A stretch of DNA of 34,434 bases, taken from positions 1-34,434 of the forward strand of contig JAENWF010000107.1 in the NCBI GenBank assembly GCA_016650215.1, read 5' to 3'. This document shows positions 9,829 to 32,293 of the stretch, piece after piece. The translations under genes and the position numbers were made by a program. The DNA is from Thermoanaerobaculia bacterium. Lineage in GTDB: Bacteria > Acidobacteriota > Thermoanaerobaculia > Gp7-AA8. The notes below the pieces were generated by a model, which did no database searches, was not told where the DNA came from, and was given only the letters and a program-made list of their open reading frames with translations. Each line of letters opens with the position of its first letter. Position 1 is the first letter of the stretch.

Positions 9829-9860
9829 CGTGTGGCGGCGGGCGCCCTCGCCCGCCGCTC
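9829..9860. repeat. family-2 GC hairpin, single copy, terminator-like
   Basis: Perfect 10-bp stem GCGGCGGGCG / CGCCCGCCGC with a CCCT loop (9835-9858), preceded by GTGTG. The same string, inverse complemented, is one arm of the element at 16783-16869. It lies between the convergent M28 and CHRD genes, 13 bases from the latter's stop, so it probably acts as a bidirectional terminator. Confidence 0.7.
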
Positions 9861-12193: not shown

Positions 12194-12285
12194 GGGAGAG
12201 CCTTTCAACATTCAACATTCAACATTCCCGTCTCTAACCACAGGGAACGGGAATGTTGAATGTTGAATGTTGAATGTTGAAAAAG
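12194..12285. repeat. long hairpin of tandem 7-mers (TCAACAT)3 and inverse
   Basis: The left arm GGGAGAG..TTCAACATTCAACATTCAACATTCCCG pairs with the right arm CGGGAATGTTGAATGTTGAATGTTGAA..GCTCTCCC across an ~18-base loop. Each arm holds three copies of a 7-bp unit. It lies between the convergent OmpW-like and kinase genes, about 20 bases from each stop, so it should end both transcripts. AT-rich composition contrasts with the GC-rich surroundings. Confidence 0.85.
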
Positions 12286-16782: not shown

Positions 16783-16869
16783 CCTCTGTGTGGGAGCAGG
16801 CGCCCTCGCCCGCTCGCTCGTGCGGGGCGGGGAACGCGGCGGGCGAGGGCGCCCGCCGCCACACAGAGG
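16783..16869. repeat. family-2 inverted repeat, full copy
   Basis: Left arm CCTCTGTGTGG..GCGCCCTCGCCCG; right arm CGGGCGAGGGCGCCCGCCGCCACACAGAGG; 11-bp perfect outer ends and a GC-rich inner stem with mismatches. It lies between the stop of the MBL gene (20 bases) and the aroA start (37 bases) and is the source of the false N-terminal extension of the aroA ORF. Confidence 0.85.
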
Positions 16870-22023: not shown

Positions 22024-24413
22024 GGTTTTCGATTCCACACCCCGAATCCCACCATCCCCAGCGCAGTTGCCAGAGCCACCCAGAACCCTACCCGGAAACT
22101 CATCGGCGCGTACCGGACACGGACATCCGAGATCCCGGGCGGAACGACGAAGCCGAGAAATCCGCCGTTGACACGAACCGGACGCAGAGAACCGCCGTGT
22201 GATGCCACGCGCCACCCCGGCCACCACGGAATGCTGCTGACGACCATCGTGTGCCGCGGCGCGTCGACGCGCAGCGTGAAATCCGTCGGTCGGGCGCGAA
22301 CAATCTGGAGCGTTGCATGCGGCGCATCAAACGGACGCGGTGCGAGCAGGTCGGAGCGCATCTGATCGCTATCGACCGGCAACTCCTCGAGCAATGCCGT
22401 GTTCGCCCAGTCGTTGTGCGTCCCCAGCAGCTTGAAGAATGCATCGTCGCGGAACTCGAGCACGACGTTTCGCGTGGAGAAGAATCGGGGCAGCACGGTG
22501 AGGTTCTCGTAGATCCGTCCGTCGCGACCTTCGTAGACGAGCGCGAACCGCTGCTGATCCTTCAGTTTGGTGCGGGGATCGGTCACGACCCACCGGACGT
22601 TGAGAAAGTCGAGCACACCCGTCTCGTAGTTTTTCCACTGAGCGAAGTAATCAGCGGTGTTGTATCCGGTGAGTACGCGAAGCACGCCGAGGTAGCGGCC
22701 GTTGGCCATCGGATCGTGCGCGCGTACATCTTCGAACCCGAACACTGCCGGAACATTCGTGAACATCGCGGGCCCGATTCCGACCATACGGAATGGAGCG
22801 TTCGATGGCTGCGCAGCTTTCATTTTCTGCAGCGCCTCGATGAGCGGTGTCGGTGCGTAGAGCGTCGATGCCGGCACGTTCGGATTCCACGCGCGGCTGA
22901 CATTCCAGAGCTCCGCGAGAATCGCGACGGCGAGGATCGACGTCGCGAGGAGCTTGAAGCGCCCCGCGAATGGAACGGTACACGCGATGAGCAGGACGAG
23001 CATGCTCGGCACGATCGCGGCGATCGCCGTGTCGCGATGCCAAGGCAGCTCGTAAGGTGTGCTGAGGACGAGATAGAGCAGAACCGCGGCGCTGAAGCAG
23101 ACTCCGATCAGGAACGCGATGCGCGCCCGGTCGCGAAGCAGCAGATCGATCGCCGCCGCCGTCATCATCGCGAGAAGAAAGCAGAAGAGCAGCCGCAGGC
23201 GCACGTTGGCGGCGAGACGGAACACGAGATGAAAGATGTCGCTGATGCCTGGCCACGCCATGACGATGCCAAGCACAATCACTGTTGAGATGACGAAGAA
23301 CGCCTCGCGCGAGCGCCACGAGCGACTCGCGACGACGTGGATCAGCAGCGCGAGCCACGCGCCGATCCCGAGCGCTCCCGCGAAGCCGCTGATCGACTCC
23401 GCAGTCGCAGGTCCCCACGATTTCTCGAACGGGAGCTGTCCGTAGAAATGCGGCTGAAGCAGGACGACGAACGACGGCCAGTCCGAGTAGTAACCGATCG
23501 CCTGCGGACTCACCTGCAACTCCTGGTACCGCTTCGACCTGGTCAGCGCCTCGGCGAACGGTGCGAGAAACGGTGCGGCCAGCAATCCCGCGACTGCCAG
23601 GGCGCCGCCGAGCGTGAGGATGAAGCGGAACGCATCGCGCGGCGCGAACGGCCGCTCGACCAGCACGATCCAGAGGAGATAGAGAAGCGAAATGAAGAAG
23701 ATGTGGGCGACCGTCTCAGGGTGGCCGCCGAACAGCAGCGTCGCCCAGAGCGCGGCGGCGAACGCGAAGCGGCCGAAGGTGCGCTTTTCCGCCAGGAGAT
23801 CGATCTGCAACAACGCCGCCGGAACGAACGCCGCGACGGTCACCAGCGGGAAGTGCAGCCACGTGATGAGAAAGCTGCAGAAGCCGAAGCAGATCGCGCC
23901 GATCGAGCTCGCAATCTCCGAATAGCCACGCCGGCGACAGAAGAGAAACGTGAATGTGAGTGCCGCGAGAATCTTCATCGCCGCCTCGGCCGCGAAGCTC
24001 TGACCGAGAGGTAGCGGCAGCGCGAACAGCCGCAGCGGAGAGAACGCCGAGCTCTGGCCGTTCGCGAGCAGCGGATAGCCCCCGCCCGAGAGATGGTTCC
24101 AGAGCGGAAACTCGAGCGACCTCCAGCTCTCGCGTACCTGATGCGCCCACGGAGCGATCTGAAGCACGAGGTCGTTGATGTCCGAGTTGATCGGACGGTG
24201 ATCGCGCGTGAGTCCGGTCCACGGCGGCAGGATCCGGAGAAAGTCCGCCGGCAAATTCACCATGTCGCCCGTGAGCGACTGATGTAGAAAGATGAAGACC
24301 AGAAGGTAGAAGAATCCGGCGACGCGCCATCGGAGCTCCAACCCGGCACGCCGCGTCAGCCACACCGCCGCTGTGTAGACAGCCGCCACCAGAAGCCACG
24401 AAGCATTGAACAC
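22017..24413 (-). CDS. YfhO-family multi-pass membrane protein
   Basis: 798-residue inner-membrane protein, GTG start. It has about a dozen hydrophobic segments, with a first extracytoplasmic loop containing DLVLQIAPWAHQVRESWRSLEFPLWNHLSGGGYPLLANGQSSAFSPLRL. That region is the hallmark of YfhO / GT-C-type proteins, in which acidic residues of the first loop bind a lipid-linked sugar donor. The long C-terminal soluble part ends with PRHTMVVSSIPWWPGWRVASHG, also typical. B. subtilis YfhO glycosylates lipoteichoic acid; the acceptor here is unknown. Its stop codon TGA lies in the outer end of repeat copy B, so the last residues (RKPS) come from that junction. Confidence 0.87.
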   Translation of the reverse strand: MFNASWLLVAAVYTAAVWLTRRAGLELRWRVAGFFYLLVFIFLHQSLTGDMVNLPADFLRILPPWTGLTRDHRPINSDINDLVLQIAPWAHQVRESWRSLEFPLWNHLSGGGYPLLANGQSSAFSPLRLFALPLPLGQSFAAEAAMKILAALTFTFLFCRRRGYSEIASSIGAICFGFCSFLITWLHFPLVTVAAFVPAALLQIDLLAEKRTFGRFAFAAALWATLLFGGHPETVAHIFFISLLYLLWIVLVERPFAPRDAFRFILTLGGALAVAGLLAAPFLAPFAEALTRSKRYQELQVSPQAIGYYSDWPSFVVLLQPHFYGQLPFEKSWGPATAESISGFAGALGIGAWLALLIHVVASRSWRSREAFFVISTVIVLGIVMAWPGISDIFHLVFRLAANVRLRLLFCFLLAMMTAAAIDLLLRDRARIAFLIGVCFSAAVLLYLVLSTPYELPWHRDTAIAAIVPSMLVLLIACTVPFAGRFKLLATSILAVAILAELWNVSRAWNPNVPASTLYAPTPLIEALQKMKAAQPSNAPFRMVGIGPAMFTNVPAVFGFEDVRAHDPMANGRYLGVLRVLTGYNTADYFAQWKNYETGVLDFLNVRWVVTDPRTKLKDQQRFALVYEGRDGRIYENLTVLPRFFSTRNVVLEFRDDAFFKLLGTHNDWANTALLEELPVDSDQMRSDLLAPRPFDAPHATLQIVRARPTDFTLRVDAPRHTMVVSSIPWWPGWRVASHGGSLRPVRVNGGFLGFVVPPGISDVRVRYAPMSFRVGFWVALATALGMVGFGVWNRKPS

Positions 24414-24444
24414 GGCCGCGGATGATATCCGGAGTTCTGCTCAG

Positions 24445-24510
24445 CCTGAGAGGCTGTGAAAACAATTGGCTTCTGTGTGGCGCCGCAGACGCTTCGCTTC
24501 GCTCAGGGTT
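24445..24510. repeat. chimeric remnant of family-1 and family-2 repeats
   Basis: CCTGAGAGGCTGTGAAAACAATTGGCTTCTGTGTGGCGCCGC resembles the left end of the composite element at 29080. It is followed directly by ACGCTTCGCTTCGCTCAGGGTT, the right end of a family-1 copy. The middle of the composite is missing, as if deleted between inner arms. It lies between the lipoprotein stop and the start of the YfhO-family gene. Confidence 0.65.
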
Positions 24511-24521
24511 TGAACGCCCGA

Positions 24522-25052
24522 TCAGCGCGACATCAGAATCATCGTGCGATCGACCACCTGAGAGGTGGTCACGTCAAAGTACGGACGCTGCACGGTGACG
24601 CGGGGGCGATTCGGGCGCGGCTCGATTTCCGCCGCGCGATATGGGCCGGCGGCTTTCGTGATGTCGGTCTTGAGGTTCAGTTTCGGGATGAGCGACTCGA
24701 TCGCTTTGGCGTCGGCCGCAAGATCGCCGGTTCGGTAGAACGCTGGCGGTTTCGTAGCGCTGAGGTTGTTCGTCACGTTCGGGGCAACTTCAACGTAGCC
24801 GTACGACTTCGCGTAGAAGGCCGCGACCTGATCGACCGGCGCGTCGGTGTCGTAAACGGCAACAGGCGGTGGCTCCTCATTTGGCTTGAGGACCTTGTGC
24901 GCCTGCCGGGTCATGTCGCTGATGCCGCCGAGGTATTTCGCGCCCGGGTAGACGACGAAGCTGAACGCTTCCGACTCGACGTATTGATCTTCTTTCTTGC
25001 AGCCGCCCGCGATGGAGAGAAGGACGAGAGCGGCGATGATTGAACGCTTCAC
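24522..25052 (-). CDS. hypothetical lipoprotein
   Basis: 176-residue predicted lipoprotein with GTG start; GGAGG lies 9 bases upstream. N-terminus MKRSIIAALVLLSIAGGCKKED has a signal peptide ending in Cys 18, with Lys-Lys-Glu-Asp next. The mature part has FSFVVYPGAKYLGG, then VAVYDTDAPVDQVAAFYAKSYG, a pattern I associate with unnamed acidobacterial lipoproteins in which a small alpha/beta domain reads 'distance from X' (function unknown). A terminal beta portion follows. It is separate from the next upstream gene by about 40 bases. A repeat remnant follows its stop. Confidence 0.75.
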   Translation of the reverse strand: MKRSIIAALVLLSIAGGCKKEDQYVESEAFSFVVYPGAKYLGGISDMTRQAHKVLKPNEEPPPVAVYDTDAPVDQVAAFYAKSYGYVEVAPNVTNNLSATKPPAFYRTGDLAADAKAIESLIPKLNLKTDITKAAGPYRAAEIEPRPNRPRVTVQRPYFDVTTSQVVDRTMILMSR

Positions 25053-25093
25053 TGAAGGAAACCTCCGAGAAAATTGATGCGGCGCGGACGATA

Positions 25094-25408
25094 TCAGATC
25101 GGGATGACCTCGCGAAGCTCGCGCCCCACCACTTCACCGAACCGTTGCGCGTATGACTTGATCGACCCTGAAGCCTCGTCGAGGAAGATCCGTTCGACGC
25201 GGAACAGCGGTACGAACATCGTCAGAAGATCGAGGTTCGGTTCTTCATCGCGCGCGATCTGGTGAATCCAATCCTCGAAGGAATCGAGATTGATCGCACG
25301 GAACGTGACGCCGGCAGGAGAGAGCGCCGAGAGGATTCCGAAGAATTTCTCCTTCGGGTTCACCAGATTCACGATGATGAGTGACTTCGGCTCGAACCCC
25401 TCGATCAT
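25094..25408 (-). CDS. conserved hypothetical coupled to methylmalonyl-CoA epimerase
   Basis: 104-residue cytoplasmic protein. SLIIVNLVNPKEKFFGILSALSPAGVTFRAINLDSFEDW suggests a small alpha/beta fold, somewhat like an SM-like or PilZ-size barrel, followed by TMFVPLFRVERIFLDEASG. No catalytic motif is visible. The ATG overlaps the stop of the epimerase gene by four bases (ATGA), so the two are co-translated. The name of the family, if any, is not known to me; it may be a regulatory partner, but that is only inferred from coupling. Confidence 0.75.
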   Translation of the reverse strand: MIEGFEPKSLIIVNLVNPKEKFFGILSALSPAGVTFRAINLDSFEDWIHQIARDEEPNLDLLTMFVPLFRVERIFLDEASGSIKSYAQRFGEVVGRELREVIPI

Positions 25409-25803
25409 TTCACTTTCTCACTCAGCTCGATCAGCACGCCGTTGCCGGCGGCCGGATGGAGAAATGCCACGCGGCAGCCATGGGCGCCCGGCACCGGGCT
25501 CTCATTGATCAGCCGGAACCCCGCGGCCTTCAGCCGTTCGAGATGCGCGTCGATGTCGTCTACCCGAAAGCAGATGTGATGAATCCCCTCGCCCCGCTTC
25601 TCGATGAACTTTGCAACAGGCGACGCGGCCGAAGTCGGCTCGAGCAGCTCGAGACTCGAGTCGCCGACCGGAAGAAACGCGATGCGGACTCCCTGGGTCT
25701 CCACCGTCTCGACATGATCGACGGTCAGGCCCAGCGCACGGTAAACAGCAGCGCCCTCAATGGAACGAACCGCGATCCCAATGTGATCCAGTACAGGTTT
25801 CAT
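25405..25803 (-). CDS. mce: methylmalonyl-CoA epimerase
   Basis: VOC-fold enzyme interconverting (R)- and (S)-methylmalonyl-CoA, in propionate and odd-chain / branched-chain catabolism. The start is ATG 25803 (MKPVLDHIGIAV), since the six extra residues of the longer ORF precede the conserved N-terminus; 132 residues. The four metal ligands sit in DHIGIAV, SLELLEP, GIHHICF and VLIELSE. The catalytic Glu pair and overall length fit the family. Mutase genes are not in the window. It overlaps the hypothetical gene that follows; tandem short repeats lie upstream. Confidence 0.87.
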   Translation of the reverse strand: MKPVLDHIGIAVRSIEGAAVYRALGLTVDHVETVETQGVRIAFLPVGDSSLELLEPTSAASPVAKFIEKRGEGIHHICFRVDDIDAHLERLKAAGFRLINESPVPGAHGCRVAFLHPAAGNGVLIELSEKVK

Positions 25804-25818
25804 AGAATTAGTCGGTCT

Positions 25819-25879
25819 CAACTCGTCACTCGTAACGCGTCACGCGTCACAACTCAGCACTCAGTCCTCAGTCCTCGTC
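25819..25879. repeat. short imperfect tandem repeats (CGTCAC and ACTCAG types)
   Basis: ACTCGTCACTCGTAACGCGTCACGCGTCAC is followed by AACTCAGCACTCAGTCCTCAGTCCTCG. Two blocks of 7-8 bp units fill the gap between queE and the epimerase gene. They have no dyad symmetry, so this is a satellite-like spacer rather than a terminator. Confidence 0.6.
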
Positions 25880-26512
25880 TCAAACGCCATGCACATCCGC
25901 CCCCCAGATATGTTTGTGCAACTGCGTCTGGAAGCGTGCCGGGAGGCGGTCGGCGAGCATCCATTCGGCGAGCGGCTTCATCTCCATCTCGCCCCAGACC
26001 GGCGAGATGAGAATCGTCCAGCGGTCGAGTCGATGCTGCGCGATGATCCCGCGCCCCCAATCGTAATCGGCGCGGTCTGAAATCACGAACTTGATCTCAT
26101 CGTGCGCGCGAAGATGCTCGATGTTCGACCAGCGGTTCTTCTCGACTTCGCCTGAGCCGGGACACTTGATGTCGAGAATGATCTTCGCGCGCGGATCGAC
26201 GGGGGTGATGTCGATCGAGCCGGAGGTTTCGATCAGAACTTCGAATCCGTCATTGCAGAGTCTTTCGATCAGCGTGAATGCTTCGGGTTGCGCGAGCGGC
26301 TCACCTCCGGTGATCTCGACGAGGTTGCAGCCGTAGCTCTTCACCTTCTCGACGATCTGCTCGATCTCGATCTTCTCCCCGCCGGTGAAGGTGTAGGCCG
26401 AGTCGCACCAGCGGCAGCGGAGATTGCAGCCCGTGAGGCGGACAAAGACGCACGGCCGTCCGGCGTGGGACGACTCGCCCTGGATCGAGTGGAAGATTTC
26501 GGTGATTCTCAT
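25880..26512 (-). CDS. queE: 7-carboxy-7-deazaguanine synthase
   Basis: Radical SAM enzyme of preQ0 / queuosine synthesis (210 residues). It rearranges 6-carboxy-tetrahydropterin to 7-carboxy-7-deazaguanine. The N-terminal block MRITEIFHSIQGESSHAGRPCVFVRLTGCNLRCRWCDSAYTF is characteristic and carries the CxxxCxxC cluster motif (CNLRCRWC) binding 4Fe-4S. EITGGEPL is the SAM-binding GGE(P) motif, then IETSGSI and ILDIKCPGSGE. C-terminal HKHIWG is conserved. It lies on the same strand as queC, downstream of it, with repeat copy D between. Confidence 0.94.
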   Translation of the reverse strand: MRITEIFHSIQGESSHAGRPCVFVRLTGCNLRCRWCDSAYTFTGGEKIEIEQIVEKVKSYGCNLVEITGGEPLAQPEAFTLIERLCNDGFEVLIETSGSIDITPVDPRAKIILDIKCPGSGEVEKNRWSNIEHLRAHDEIKFVISDRADYDWGRGIIAQHRLDRWTILISPVWGEMEMKPLAEWMLADRLPARFQTQLHKHIWGADVHGV

Positions 26513-26533
26513 ATTCTTGGGCGGGCGGCGGCG

Positions 26534-26664
26534 TCATGCTGAGCGAAGCGAAGCATCTTCTGATAGCACAAGAGACCATTGATAGCAGCTGGGATCACGA
26601 TGTTCGTGCGCCGCACGATCTTAGCTCGTGCTCTCAGAAGATCCTTCGCTTCGCTCAGGATGAC
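26534..26664. repeat. family-1 interspersed inverted repeat, copy D
   Basis: Left arm TCATGCTGAGCGAAGCGAAGCATCTTCTGATAGCAC; right arm GTGCTCTCAGAAGATCCTTCGCTTCGCTCAGGATGAC; a ~60-base centre. It lies between queC and queE (same strand) and its right end overlaps the last 10 bases of queC including the stop. Confidence 0.88.
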
Positions 26665-27317
26665 GGGCTAAGGCCAGCCTCCTCGAATCCCCTTCTCCTC
26701 AATATGCACGAATCGCAGTGTCCGCACGGTTTTCCCGACGGATCGGGGTCATAGCAGGAGTGCGTCATCGAGTAGTCGATCCCCAGCGAAACTCCCCGCC
26801 TGATGATCTCTGCCTTGGACAACAGGATCAGGGGGGTGACGATCCGCGGCTCCCCCTTTTCCACGCCGCTCCGCGTTCCCTTGAGCACGACCTGCTGAAA
26901 CGCGTCGATGAACTCGGGGCGGCAGTCGGGATAGCCGCTGAAGTCGACGGCGTTAACGCCGAGCCAGATCTCCTGCGCTTCGCGAGCTTCGGCGAATCCG
27001 AGCGCAAGGGCGAGAAAGATCGTGTTCCGGGCCGGGACGTACGTGACCGGGATCCCCGGCGCGCCCACCGCGTCTTTGGGCACATCGATGTCCGCCGTCA
27101 GCGCGCTCGCGCCAAACACGCGGAGATTGATCGGATAGACGACGTGCTCATCGGCGTGCAGCGCTACAGCCACCCGCCTCGACGCCGCGAGCTCAATCTC
27201 ATGGCGCTGTCCGTACTGAAACGTCAGCGCGTGGCAGACACGCCCCTCCGACTTCGCGATCGCGAGGACCGTCGCGGAGTCGAGACCACCGCTGAGAAGA
27301 ACGACTGCACGAATCAC
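26655..27317 (-). CDS. queC: 7-cyano-7-deazaguanine synthase
   Basis: ATP-dependent enzyme turning 7-carboxy-7-deazaguanine into preQ0 (220 residues). The P-loop-like [10 protein letters not shown] (PP-loop) at the N-terminus, [27 protein letters not shown] and the C-terminal zinc site [23 protein letters not shown] are all present. The GTG start overlaps the pyrimidine phosphorylase stop (GTGA), so it is translationally coupled to a nucleoside-salvage gene, an uncommon neighbour. The last residues (SPSS) and the TGA stop come from the outer end of repeat copy D, replacing the usual C-terminal tail. Confidence 0.94.
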
Positions 27318-28621
27318 GTCAGATGCTCATGCACGAGTGGTCGGGGCGCAGGCGGCGCGTCGGCAAACTGAACGAACGAAAGGAAACGTGTGACGAGCTC
27401 GTCGCCTCCCCGCTTGCCGAGCTGAATCCGCGCGATCGTCTCGCCAGCCTTCACCTCGTCGCCGGTGCGGCGGTCGAACATCACGCCTGCCGCGAAATCG
27501 ATCACGTCGTCGGCCTTCTTCCGGCCTGCGCCGAGATCGACGATGAACATGCCGGCCTCATAGGTGTCGATGTGGGAGATGTAGCCGCTGCGCGGCGCTT
27601 TCACTTCGATTGTCTTCGACGGCTGGGGGAGGCGCGAGTAGTCGTCGACGATCCGCGCGTCGCCCTTCTGCGCGGCAATCCACTTTCTCGTCTGTTCGAG
27701 CGCCGCGCCGCTGCGGAGCGTTTCGTCGAGCTTCTTCCCTGCTGACGCCTCGTCGTAGCGGCCCGACATGACGAGAAGTCTGACCGCCTGCACGCGCGTG
27801 ATGTCGAGCACGTCGGACGGTCCCTTTCCTTTGAGGACTTCGATCGTCTCGACGATCTCGTTCGCGTTACCCGCGGCGACGCCGAGGGGACGATCCATGT
27901 CGGTGATGAGCGCCTCCACCTTCGTGCCCGAGCCCTCGGCAGCGGCGATCAGCGATTGTGCGAGCGCCTTCGAGTCCTGATAGAGGCGCATGAACGCGCC
28001 GCTGCCGGTCTTTACGTCGAGGATGAGTGCGGAAGCTCCCATCGCGAGCTTCTTCGACATGATCGACGCCGTGATGAGCGGCAGCGACTCGACGGTTCCG
28101 GTCACGTCGCGTAGCGCGTAGATCTTCCGGTCGGCAGGCGCGATGCCCTCGGTCGAGGTCGAGATCACGCATCCTGCTTCGGCAATCGCTCCGTCGAACT
28201 CCTTGCGCGAGAGCCGCGCGTTGAAGCCCGGGATCGCCTCGAGCTTGTCGAGCGTACCGCCCGTGTGGCCGAGGCCGCGGCCCGAGAGCATCCCGATCTT
28301 GATCCCGCACGCTGCGACCCACGGCGAGAGGACGAGCGAGATCTTGTCGCCGATGCCACCCGTCGAGTGCTTGTCGCAGATGAAGTCGTACTGATTGCGG
28401 AGGTGCCACTGCTCCCCGGAGCGGAGCATCGCCTGAGTCAGGGTGGCCATCTCCTGAGCGGTCATCCCGTTGATGGCGATCGCCATCAGGAGCGCACTCA
28501 TCTGGTAGTCGGGGATCTCTCCCCGGGTGTAGCGATCGACGAATGTCTCGATCTCATGGGGCTCCAGAGGGGCTCCGCGGCGCTTGCGGTTGAGGACTTC
28601 GTAGACACTCATCTCCTTCAT
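27314..28621 (-). CDS. pyrimidine-nucleoside / thymidine phosphorylase
   Basis: Phosphorolysis of thymidine/uridine (435 residues). Blocks: [42 protein letters not shown] (phosphate and nucleoside binding), [45 protein letters not shown] and VKTGSGAFM; the C-terminal ETIARI-type domain ends it. Intact at all positions I can check. The chosen ATG (28621) lacks a ribosome site. A second ATG nine bases on is preceded immediately by AAGGAG at zero spacing, so the start is uncertain. Its stop overlaps queC (GTGA). A CRP-like palindrome lies upstream. With deoB, it gives entry of deoxyribonucleosides into pentose metabolism. Confidence 0.94.
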
Positions 28622-28642
28622 AGGGTGGCGATTCTACTTGCA

Positions 28643-28658
28643 CGTGAGCCAGGTCACA
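28643..28658. promoter_or_regulatory. CRP-type palindrome CGTGA-N6-TCACA
   Basis: CGTGAGCCAGGTCACA differs by one base from the E. coli CRP consensus TGTGA-N6-TCACA. It lies 22 bases from the phosphorylase start and 47 from the response-regulator start, in the divergent gap. CRP controls deo genes in E. coli, so this may be an operator for a Crp/Fnr-family regulator (none is in the window). Confidence 0.4.
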
Positions 28659-28704
28659 CCGGGGAGGCCTTGTCGGATGTTTATTGCTGTTGAGGGTTCC
28701 CGCT

Positions 28705-29061
28705 GTGAACGGTGTCAAGAAGATTCTGGTCGTCGACGATGACATGCACGTGCGTGAGATGCTCGTGCAGCGTCTGCGGAGCCGTGGCTTCGAAGTCGAG
28801 GGATCGGATTCCGCAACGAGCGCGATGCAGAAACTCGACGCCGTGCGCTACGACCTGGTCGTGCTCGATCTCATTCTCCCGCGTGAAGGGGGGAAAGTCG
28901 TCGTCGAGCAGGTGCTCGCCGCGCACAACGGCACGCAGCTCATCATCATGTCGGGCGTCGCGAGACTCTGGCGCAAAGCCAATCCATCGGTGCGCGTGGC
29001 AGGAGTGCTCGAAAAGCCCTTCGCGTTCGACGAGCTCCTGCATTTCGTGAATAACTCGTAG
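28705..29061 (+). CDS. single-domain response regulator
   Basis: 118-residue receiver domain without an output domain. Start chosen at GTG 28705, where GAGGG lies 8 bases upstream and the product begins VNGVKKILVVDDD; the ORF-track start (TTG) adds seven residues with no ribosome site. Acidic pocket VVDDD, phospho-acceptor Asp in VVLDLILP, Ser in IIMSGV and Lys in LEKPF form a complete phosphorylation site. It probably passes phosphate or acts by protein contact, as in CheY-like or Spo0F-like proteins. No kinase is nearby, so it is an orphan. Followed by a composite repeat and deoB. Confidence 0.88.
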   Translation: MNGVKKILVVDDDMHVREMLVQRLRSRGFEVEGSDSATSAMQKLDAVRYDLVVLDLILPREGGKVVVEQVLAAHNGTQLIIMSGVARLWRKANPSVRVAGVLEKPFAFDELLHFVNNS

Positions 29062-29079
29062 ACGTGCGCCCGGGCGTCT

Positions 29080-29260
29080 CATCCTGAGGAGCCTGTGAAA
29101 AAATCGAACGTGGCGGTTCTGTGTGGCGCGCCGCCGACCCGCGGCGGCGACCTCGTCATTGGCGATCCATGTTCCCGACGGCCGCAGAGCGCCGCCGCGG
29201 GTCGACGGCGCCACACAGAGGCCGGATTTTCTTCACAGCCTCTGAGCGTAGCGAAGGATG
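29080..29260. repeat. composite nested repeat (family-1 type ends around a family-2 hairpin)
   Basis: Outer arms: CATCCTGAG..GCCTGTGAAAAAATC at left and GATTTTCTTCACAGCCTCTGAGCGTAGCGAAGGATG at right. Inside, CTGTGTGGCGC..CCGACCCGCGGCGGCG pairs with CGCCGCCGCGGGTCGACGGCGCCACACAG. It starts 19 bases after the response-regulator stop and ends 27 bases before the deoB start, so it separates the two genes. Its GATG is the false start of the longer deoB ORF. Confidence 0.85.
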
Positions 29261-29287
29261 ACGAAAGTATCCGGTATTCTTCGCGTC

Positions 29288-30460
29288 ATGAGACGCGCAA
29301 TCATTCTGGTGTGCGATTCGCTCGGCGTTGGTGAGCTTCCCGACGCGGCGGAATTCGGCGACGCGGGATCGAACACACTCGGACACGTTCTCTCGTCGCA
29401 GCATCCGAAGCTGCCGACGCTCACGAGCCTCGGACTTCTGCACACGCTTCCCTCCCCTGCTTCCAGCGAGACGCCGCGCGCTGCGTATGGGCGCATGGCC
29501 GAGTTGAGCGCGGGGAAAGACACGACGACTGGTCACTGGGAAATGATGGGGCTCGTCGTGAAGGATCCGTTCCGCACGTATCCCGACGGATTTCCGCGCG
29601 AAGTCATCGAAGAGTACGAGCGCCGCATCGGGCGGAAGACCCTCGGCAACAAGCCGGCGTCCGGAACCGTGATCCTCGACGAACTGGGTGAGGAGCACAT
29701 GCGTACCGGCTGCCCGATCGTTTACACGTCGGGGGACTCGGTGTTCCAGGTAGCGGCGCACGAACAGGTGATTCCGGTCGAAGAGCTCTGGCGGATCTGC
29801 GCGATCGCCCGCGAGCTGATGCGCGGCGAGCACAACATCGGACGGATCATCGCGCGGCCATTCGTCGGACCTGGAGCGGGCAAGTTCAAGAGGACCCCGA
29901 ACCGGAAGGACTTCTCCGTGAGGCCGACCGGTGAGACCGTCATGGAAAGGGCGCACAAGGCGGGACGGCAAGTCGTCGGTCTCGGAAAAATCTCCGACAT
30001 CTTCGATGGTGTCGGGATCGGAAAAGAGATCCGGACAGAATCGAACACAGACGGCATGCGAAAGACGATCGATCTGATCCGCGAATCGGACGCCGACTTC
30101 ATCTTCACGAATCTCGTGGACTTCGATTCCAAGTACGGACATCGAAACGACGCGCCCGGATACGCGCGCGCTCTCGAGAGTTTCGACGGCGAGCTGAAGG
30201 AGCTGCTCGGCGCGCTGCGGCACGACGATCTGCTGTTCATCACCGCCGATCACGGCTGCGATCCGACCGACGTCTCCACCGATCACACGCGCGAGTATGT
30301 GCCGCTCATCGTCGCCGGTCCGCGCATCTCAGCAGCTACGCCGCTCGGCACGCGCAGTACGTTCGCCGACCTCGGGGCTACCGTGTGCGAGTATCTGCGA
30401 TTACCGTTGAAGGGACTTCCCGGCAGGAGCGTATTGCCGGAACTAGGAGTAGGAAATTGA
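29288..30460 (+). CDS. deoB: phosphopentomutase
   Basis: Mn-dependent enzyme of the alkaline phosphatase superfamily moving phosphate between C1 and C5 of (deoxy)ribose, following nucleoside phosphorylase. The start is ATG 29288 (MRRAIILVCDSLGVGELPDA), 390 residues. The ORF-track ATG 30 bases upstream lies in repeat sequence. Motifs: CDSLGVGELPDA (metal), GKDTTTGHWEMMG (catalytic Thr region), SGDSVFQVAAHE, GPGAGKFKRTPNRKDFS, TNLVDFDSKYGHRND, ADHGCDPT and STDHTREYVPL. Complete. The next gene starts two bases after its stop. Together with the pyrimidine-nucleoside phosphorylase 0.7 kb away (divergent) it forms a nucleoside catabolic set. Confidence 0.96.
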   Translation: MRRAIILVCDSLGVGELPDAAEFGDAGSNTLGHVLSSQHPKLPTLTSLGLLHTLPSPASSETPRAAYGRMAELSAGKDTTTGHWEMMGLVVKDPFRTYPDGFPREVIEEYERRIGRKTLGNKPASGTVILDELGEEHMRTGCPIVYTSGDSVFQVAAHEQVIPVEELWRICAIARELMRGEHNIGRIIARPFVGPGAGKFKRTPNRKDFSVRPTGETVMERAHKAGRQVVGLGKISDIFDGVGIGKEIRTESNTDGMRKTIDLIRESDADFIFTNLVDFDSKYGHRNDAPGYARALESFDGELKELLGALRHDDLLFITADHGCDPTDVSTDHTREYVPLIVAGPRISAATPLGTRSTFADLGATVCEYLRLPLKGLPGRSVLPELGVGN

Positions 30461-30462
30461 TC

Positions 30463-31377
30463 ATGCGAACCACCGCCGCACTTTTTCTGATCGCAGCAAC
30501 GGGCCTCGGCGCCGAGGCGCCGATTCAACGCGTCGCGCAGGACGCGACAGTCGTCGACCGCGTCGCTGAGGCGAGCCGGAAGGATCTGCCGACGAACCTG
30601 CTCAAGCGGATCGTCCAGGACGACATCGATCTGCTGCGCGGCAAGCGCGCGGATGGCTCGTTTCAGTTCGCGACGTTCGAGCGGCTCGAAGCGGGACGGA
30701 TCGGGAATGATTTTTCGATCCGGAAGGAGAAAGACGAGAACGATCTGACGAAAGCCGAAGTCAAAGGCGCGTGGGTCTACCGTCTGATCGTCTCCTCGCC
30801 CTCCCGCCGGATGATGGTGACGCGCAACCGCCGCGTCTGGATCGATCGTGTCGAGCTCGAGCTCATCCCTGAGAACTCATCCGCGACGCGCACGCAGGTA
30901 TTCAAAATTGAGACGTGGCTCGAGCCGGGCGCTTCGACTCCGATTGATTTTCCGATTGTCGCGCGACAGGCAACCGCCCGGGTGTTCGCACGCGCAGACA
31001 AGGATGCTGGTTACGGCAACGTCGTGCTCACTCTCATTCAGGCGAAGATCGTCGATAACGTAGACAGTCCGTACGCGACCGCGGTCGCAAGCGCGAAAGC
31101 GCTGCTCCGTGCAATCGACAACGAGGAAGTACCCTCAATCCGCGCGATGGCGACGCGGCTGCACGACACGCTCGTCGGAGCGGGAGCGGCACCGGTCGGT
31201 GTCGCGAGCGCGCCCGCGGTCGCGCAGGTGGACGTGATCGCGCCTGCAGCAACCTCTCCCGCTTTTCAGGAAGAGCTGCAGGCGATCGAAGACCTGCTGA
31301 CCGGAACCGAAAGCGAGCGACGCGAGGGGCTGGACAAGCTGCACCAGCTTCTCCGACGAATGAGGGCGAAGCGCTAG
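30463..31377 (+). CDS. hypothetical exported protein
   Basis: 304 residues from ATG 30463, chosen because AGGAGTAGGA precedes it and the product then begins MRTTAALFLIAATGLGAEA, a signal peptide; the longer ORF start lies inside deoB. The mature protein is alpha/beta-like with no catalytic motif I know: VDRVAEASRKDLPTNLLKRIVQDDIDLLRG, then a beta-rich middle (AWVYRLIVSSPSRRMMVTRNRRVWIDRVELELIP). A Pro/Ala linker (GVASAPAVAQVDVIAPAAT) and a helical C-terminus follow. It begins two bases after deoB and so shares its transcript, though the products work in different compartments. Confidence 0.78.
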   Translation: MRTTAALFLIAATGLGAEAPIQRVAQDATVVDRVAEASRKDLPTNLLKRIVQDDIDLLRGKRADGSFQFATFERLEAGRIGNDFSIRKEKDENDLTKAEVKGAWVYRLIVSSPSRRMMVTRNRRVWIDRVELELIPENSSATRTQVFKIETWLEPGASTPIDFPIVARQATARVFARADKDAGYGNVVLTLIQAKIVDNVDSPYATAVASAKALLRAIDNEEVPSIRAMATRLHDTLVGAGAAPVGVASAPAVAQVDVIAPAATSPAFQEELQAIEDLLTGTESERREGLDKLHQLLRRMRAKR

Positions 31378-31383
31378 GTCTTA

Positions 31384-31513
31384 CAACCCTGAGCGAAGCG
31401 AAGGGTCTTCTGATAGCACAAGCTACGATCGATCCGCGCACGCGGCACGTTCTTCGAGACATGCTCTCGCGCCGCTCGTGCTCTCAGTAGACCCTTCGCT
31501 TCGCTCAGGGTTG
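31384..31513. repeat. family-1 interspersed inverted repeat, copy E
   Basis: Left arm CAACCCTGAGCGAAGCGAAGGGTCTTCTGATAGCAC; right arm GTGCTCTCAGTAGACCCTTCGCTTCGCTCAGGGTTG; the most symmetrical copy. It begins 7 bases after the stop of the exported-protein gene and occupies the first half of a ~390-base gap before carD. Confidence 0.9.
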
Positions 31514-31562
31514 AGAGAACCCAGAACCCACGCGTCCAGGCGACGGTGGTTCTTGCGCGGGA

Positions 31563-31594
31563 GATCCTTCGCCGTCTTCGCGGCTCAGGATGAC
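31563..31594. repeat. family-1 half element, copy F
   Basis: GATCCTTCGCCGTCTTCGCGGCTCAGGATGAC equals the inverse complement of the left arm of copy A (CATCCTGAGCCGCGAAGACGGCGAAGGATC). Only one arm is present, 50 bases beyond copy E. The remaining bases to the carD promoter hold nothing I recognise. Confidence 0.75.
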
Positions 31595-31693
31595 AGCAAA
31601 CCCCTGCTTTTGCCGTGACTTGAGGTGTGACGCCGCTCACGCCCACACCCCTATTGTTGAGCCGGTCATTGTCAGATTTCGGGGCGCTGTGGG

Positions 31694-31722
31694 TTGACCG
31701 ATCGGGGGCTCCAGCGTACAAT
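31694..31722 (+). promoter_or_regulatory. near-consensus sigma-70 promoter of carD
   Basis: TTGACC, 17-base spacer, TACAAT: five of six matches in each hexamer with ideal spacing. It would start transcription near 31729, about 43 bases before the carD start codon. The region between is free of hairpins. Confidence 0.75.
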
Positions 31723-31771
31723 GCGCGTCCCTCGCAGTTTCTGCCAGCAAATTCCGAAAGGAGCCTCACTA

Positions 31772-32293
31772 GTGTCTTCAATGAAACTCGGATTCAAAGT
31801 CGGCGAAAAGCTCGTTTATCCGAACCACGGTGTGACTGTCGTAGAACAGATCGGGACCTCGCCCATTTTTGGTACAGATGACACGTACTACCATCTGCGG
31901 CTTCTCGCAAATAACTCACGACTGGTGGTGCCGATCATGAACGGCGACCGCGTCGGTCTGCGCCGCCTCTACCAGCAGAAAGAGATCAAGGGGCTCATCG
32001 GGCTGATCGAAGAGCACGTCCAGAAGTCTCATACCGACTGGAAGGGCCGCTACCGCGAGAATCTGGAGAAGATGAAGACGGGACGCCTCGAAGATGTCGC
32101 CGCCGTCCTCAAGAACCTCAACGAGGTCTCGAAGAAGAAGAGCCTCTCGTTCCGTGAGAAGAAGATGTACGACCGGGCCAAGTACCTGATCGTGTCGGAA
32201 GTCGCGATCGTGAAAAACATCCCGGAGCTCGAGGCCGAGAAGCTGATCGAAAAGTCGCTCGACAAGTCGCTCGGAATCGGCGGCGGTCACTAA
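31772..32293 (+). CDS. carD: CarD/CdnL-family transcription regulator
   Basis: RNA-polymerase-binding regulator that stabilises open complexes, mainly at rRNA promoters (173 residues). The start is GTG 31772: AAAGGAG is 8 bases upstream, and the product begins (M)SSMKLGFKVGEKLVYPNHGV. The ATG nine bases on is too far from it. The N-terminal RID domain has FKVGEKLVYPNHGVTVVEQI and the TDDTYYHLRLLANNSRLVVPIMN beta core. The C-terminal helical DNA-binding domain runs from about residue 70 (W38-equivalent region RGRYRENLEKMKTGRLEDVA, SFREKKMYDRAKYLIVSEVA). It follows a strong promoter and stands alone, ending in a long hairpin. Confidence 0.92.
   Translation: MSSMKLGFKVGEKLVYPNHGVTVVEQIGTSPIFGTDDTYYHLRLLANNSRLVVPIMNGDRVGLRRLYQQKEIKGLIGLIEEHVQKSHTDWKGRYRENLEKMKTGRLEDVAAVLKNLNEVSKKKSLSFREKKMYDRAKYLIVSEVAIVKNIPELEAEKLIEKSLDKSLGIGGGH

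Follow-up and report, generated by a model that had tools for sequence, protein, structure and literature searches.

The window analysed here is the whole 34,434-nucleotide stretch of contig JAENWF010000107.1, from a Thermoanaerobaculia bacterium. Directly upstream of deoB (from 29288, Pfam Metalloenzyme) lies an intergenic element of ∼180 bases (29080-29260), with a response regulator gene (28684-29061, PF00072) on its other side; both genes are on the forward strand. The element ends 27 bp ahead of the likely deoB start, which is suggested by homologues at two other loci (L191 and L192); the longest deoB ORF begins at an ATG made by one of the repeats of the element, family 1 (29258-29288). 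The element contains two inverted REPs forming a REPIN, which is flanked on both sides by inverted M repeats. Its parts, together with related features elsewhere in the window, are as follows.

9831-9858, forward strand: single REP with the 2b hairpin (TGTGGCGGCGGGCG...), from the window sequence and the 2b search
16783-16869, no strand: sister-type REPIN with the 2b hairpin, bounded by CCTCTGTGTGG / CCACACAGAGG and lacking M and family-1 modules, from the window sequence and the 2b search
24444-24510, reverse strand: truncated remnant with CCTGAG, M (24450-24466), tag (24472-24480), then inverted family 1, from the sequence
29080-29088, forward strand: left part of family 1 (CATC + CTGAG), a palindrome, from the sequence and the family-1 genome count
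29084-29088, no strand: left CTGAG of the two direct-repeat copies on either side of the M pair, from the sequence
29089-29105, forward strand: left M repeat, GAGCCTGTGAAAAAATC, from the sequence and the M genome count
29106-29117, forward strand: left junction, GAACGTGGCGGT (AACGYGGCGG), common to many copies, from copy comparison
29118-29149, forward strand: left REP, tag TCTGTGTGG plus hairpin, from DNA folding and copy alignment
29150-29188, no strand: type-1 spacer of the REPIN (..GTCATTGGCGATCCATGTTCCCGACGGCCGCAG..), from copy comparison and alignment
29189-29219, reverse strand: right REP, inverted, with tag CCACACAGA at 29211-29219, from DNA folding and copy alignment
29220-29225, forward strand: right junction GGCCGG, common to most composite copies, from copy comparison
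29226-29241, reverse strand: right M repeat, inverted, ATTTTCTTCACAGCCT, from the sequence and the M genome count
29242-29260, forward strand: remainder of family 1, CTGAGCGTAGCGAAGGATG, containing the second CTGAG direct-repeat copy, from the sequence

A preliminary description of this DNA had recognized family-1-like ends and an inverted segment enclosing a family-2 hairpin, and these modules are indeed in place, with genome-wide counts far beyond chance. We amend that reading: the family-2 hairpin constitutes a GTGG-tagged REPIN, and the outer part comprises two layers, a CTGAG-bounded M pair inside family 1. REPINs are REP doublets that form hairpins (PMC3116915). The one at 29118-29219 opens with TCTGTGTGG and closes with the inverse of this tag, which in each REP stands at the base of a hairpin rich in G and C. 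When folded as DNA, each end gives an unpaired tag followed by the hairpin (the left REP being folded as 29118-29148), and the entire sequence can also be folded as a single long hairpin. The window element shows the GT[AG]G tag at the hairpin foot, the inverted doublet with arms conserved over the spacer and the high copy number by which REPs and REPINs are recognized.

In the genome to which the window belongs (3.19 Mb in 247 contigs, assembly 88 % complete), the tag motif TCTGTGTGGNNNNGNNG was matched 107 times, against two matches for the reversed control. Using the window element as query, we obtained at least 86 matches, with the best 40 of 163 candidates scored and both palindrome orientations counted. 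Inspection of ∼80 loci yielded 41 complete REP pairs, 28 with the spacer type of the window and 13 with other spacers. The arms are conserved and the spacer is variable across 24 aligned copies; in a set of 13 copies, identity was 0.91 for the arms and 0.63 for the spacer. About half of the 30 best copies possess the right-hand module, the join point being identical in most, and the same junctions recur on many contigs. These REPINs resemble those of PMC3116915 in their inverted REP pair, conserved ends, variable spacer and dozens of copies, but differ in that the window REPIN is set within further layers of repeats, which accompany it in at least one pair of copies. Four loci (L119, L129, L130 and L143) are collapsed REPINs, bearing both tags with 8 to 22 nt between them, far below a full REPIN, as expected from deletion between the arms. 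A search with the core in 40 relatives returned just short, weak matches outside this genome, and therefore no orthologous empty site.

A search of the genome for Y1_Tnp genes found them on two contigs (C109 and C93), and the C93 protein (P0001), used as query, added another on C184. P0001 passes the NCBIfam REP_Tyr_transpos cut-off (99.7 against 80 bits), and its best match of solved structure is the Escherichia coli TnpA-REP 4er8 (E-value 6.8e-9). The HUH histidines and Tyr132 are invariant in an alignment of 10 proteins that includes it. By model cut-off, HUH motif and catalytic tyrosine, P0001 is, as judged from its sequence, a REP-associated tyrosine transposase (RAYT). Its gene sits between inverted TTCTGTGTGG REPs that carry the tag of the window REPIN on a 2b hairpin instead of 2a; the 2b family numbers 92 matches at one mismatch, against 9 for the control. 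Across the class, 14 of 16 related RAYT genes inspected likewise lie between inverted GT[AG]G-tagged hairpins. The second RAYT (L085, on C184) is located between ATGTGGCGCCGGCTCTCAAGCCGGCGGCTTTCC repeats, and a similar REP occurs near locus L109. The Y1_Tnp gene on C109 (L031) was set aside as mobilizer; it is flanked by inverted GGGGTCAGGTCTTCG / GGGGTCAG repeats, which resemble the GGGGWSAS TIRs of PMC3733652. Described GTAG/GTGG REPs and their RAYTs (PMC3733652, PMC6006769, PMC2817692) share with our system the GTGG at the hairpin foot and the RAYT gene between inverted REPs, and TGTGG-type tags are listed there for Pseudomonas too; the difference is that no RAYT flanked by the exact 2a hairpin was seen in this 88 % complete genome.

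For the outer layers, the M repeat GAGGCTGTGAARAAATC has 27 matches in the genome and family 1 (CTGAGCGAAGCGAAGG) has 280, with none for either control. CTGAG or its reverse complement, CTCAG, precedes 15 of the 27 M matches, and all three strictly matched M pairs (on C175, on C179 and in the window) have CTGAG direct repeats on both sides, which lie in or near family-1-like sequence. Removal of the insert and one CTGAG from the window copy leaves an uninterrupted family-1 palindrome, CATCCTGAGCGTAGCGAAGGATG. The M pair has the terminal inverted repeats of a MITE, and other M pairs enclose other content; among the 27 M matches we recognized no large M-bounded element and no enzyme with M ends. 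Insertion of IS elements into REPs (PMC1525189) is comparable in that a palindromic repeat serves as target, as it may have done for the M pair in family 1, although the M pairs inspected contain no internal transposase. The stems of family 1 exist in AACC/GGTC and CATC/GATC forms that switch on both sides. With regard to the tag that a CGTC-tagged REP would have before its stem, GTCAT precedes family 1 in 12 of 59 contexts, other tags being common. A literature search with the family-1 sequence string found no paper. At 26532-26665 and 31379-31518 of the window, family 1 also forms REPIN-like inverted pairs that are joined by a linker of the TCTTCTGATAGCAC type.

The preliminary description had further held that the composite did not arise by chance insertion but forms a repeated unit of its own; this is supported, and composite copies recur in the genome. 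Up to 70 bp from a REPIN, family 1 reaches 4.42 matches per kb, against none in the ∼55 kb that lie more than 200 bp away; M reaches 1.47 per kb near REPINs, with none beyond 70 bp. We used this stricter distance test because loose motif matching also hit 16 % of random positions in the repeat-rich window; by such loose matching, 21 of the 28 copies with the window's spacer type have a family-1 or M module no more than 70 bp away, 11 of them on both sides. Only 4 of the 13 copies with other spacers are so accompanied (Fisher p 0.014). The same order of modules had been ascribed to the left side of a remnant at 24445; the order is correct, but the assignment to the left side is not. With M at 24450, 11 nt lie between GAGGCTGTGAA and the tag at 24472, as in the right-hand junction of other copies read backwards (11-12 nt), whereas the left one at 29089 measures 18 nt; the remnant thus fits the right-hand junction reversed.

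Taken together, we favour, at a probability of about 75 %, a REPIN of RAYT origin, made of an inverted pair of GTGG-tagged REPs, within a composite of M pair and family-1 palindrome that arose by M-pair insertion and spread as a unit. The REPIN is probably mobile, and most likely arose through single-strand transposition. The enzyme would be a RAYT (TnpA-REP, an HUH tyrosine transposase) that recognizes the TCTGTGTGG tag plus hairpin and cuts beside the hairpin; the C93 enzyme may be the one that moves the window REPIN. As for the M pair, this would have entered a family-1 palindrome as a miniature element, duplicating CTGAG as its target. The composite would afterwards spread as a unit of ∼185 bp. 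Copies L005 and L017, which lie on different contigs, can be aligned for ∼185 bp, from the left M-like module through the REPIN to the right family 1, and then diverge. We conclude that the composite appears to have spread whole on at least one occasion, in addition to independent copies of the REPIN. In a further two (L012 and L030), the left flank, core and right flank all have variants in common; overall, the divergence of the core is only weakly correlated with that of the right flank (Mantel r 0.38, p 0.07). It is conceivable, if doubtful, that a RAYT-type REPIN captured the outer palindromes and that the larger composite now spreads by its M/family-1 ends and not by its REPs, placing a REPIN on a second mobilization system.

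These two copy pairs also weigh against repeated insertion of the REPIN alone at one preferred site beside M/family-1 repeats, such that the composite never moved whole, as does the failure to see an M pair with a clean empty site. REPs are known IS targets (PMC1525189), and REPINs with other spacers exist, some of them (L100, L107 and L136) with decayed M-like right flanks; we nevertheless consider this unlikely. Rather improbable is a role at the RNA level, in which the element would be retained for a structure that affects deoB expression, as attenuator or mRNA stabilizer, with its repetition secondary. It does lie between two forward-strand genes, 27 bp before the likely deoB start, and folds as RNA at -125.5 kcal/mol (z -5.83), yet dozens of copies sit in contexts other than deoB, Rfam gave no match in 24000-32000, and the DNA upstream is unrelated at the two loci with the nearest deoB (protein identity 83 %), with neither element nor empty site. 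A local effect on deoB is nonetheless conceivable. Several copies sit at contig ends, where repeats break assemblies, but identical junctions across many contigs and the density of family 1 and M near REPINs, with none beyond 200 bp, make chance juxtaposition or an assembly artefact, already contradicted by recurrence, extremely improbable.

As REPINs, RAYTs and the GTGG tag (PMC3116915, PMC2817692, PMC6006769) as well as palindrome-embedded dimers (PMC3733652) have been described, the element is of an already known type. REP dimers inserted within palindromes are reported for three species, as A. variabilis GTAG-15, T. roseum GTAG-23 and H. neapolitanus CGTC-1 (PMC3733652, section 7). The best reading is a GTGG-type REPIN/RAYT system with a composite like these dimers of 2013, similar in that a REP dimer lies inside a longer palindromic repeat, and different in having two outer layers whose repeats also occur without a REPIN. 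In a Thermoanaerobaculia-like acidobacterium and in its class, our findings document REPIN/RAYT systems whose tags are of the GTGG as well as the GTAG type. The nested repeats, which can be dated layer by layer, bear on the question of whether a REPIN moves by itself or takes its surroundings along. Unrelated to REPs, the window also contains, at 12204-12282, a perfect inverted repeat of TTCAACA units with arms of 25-28 nt.
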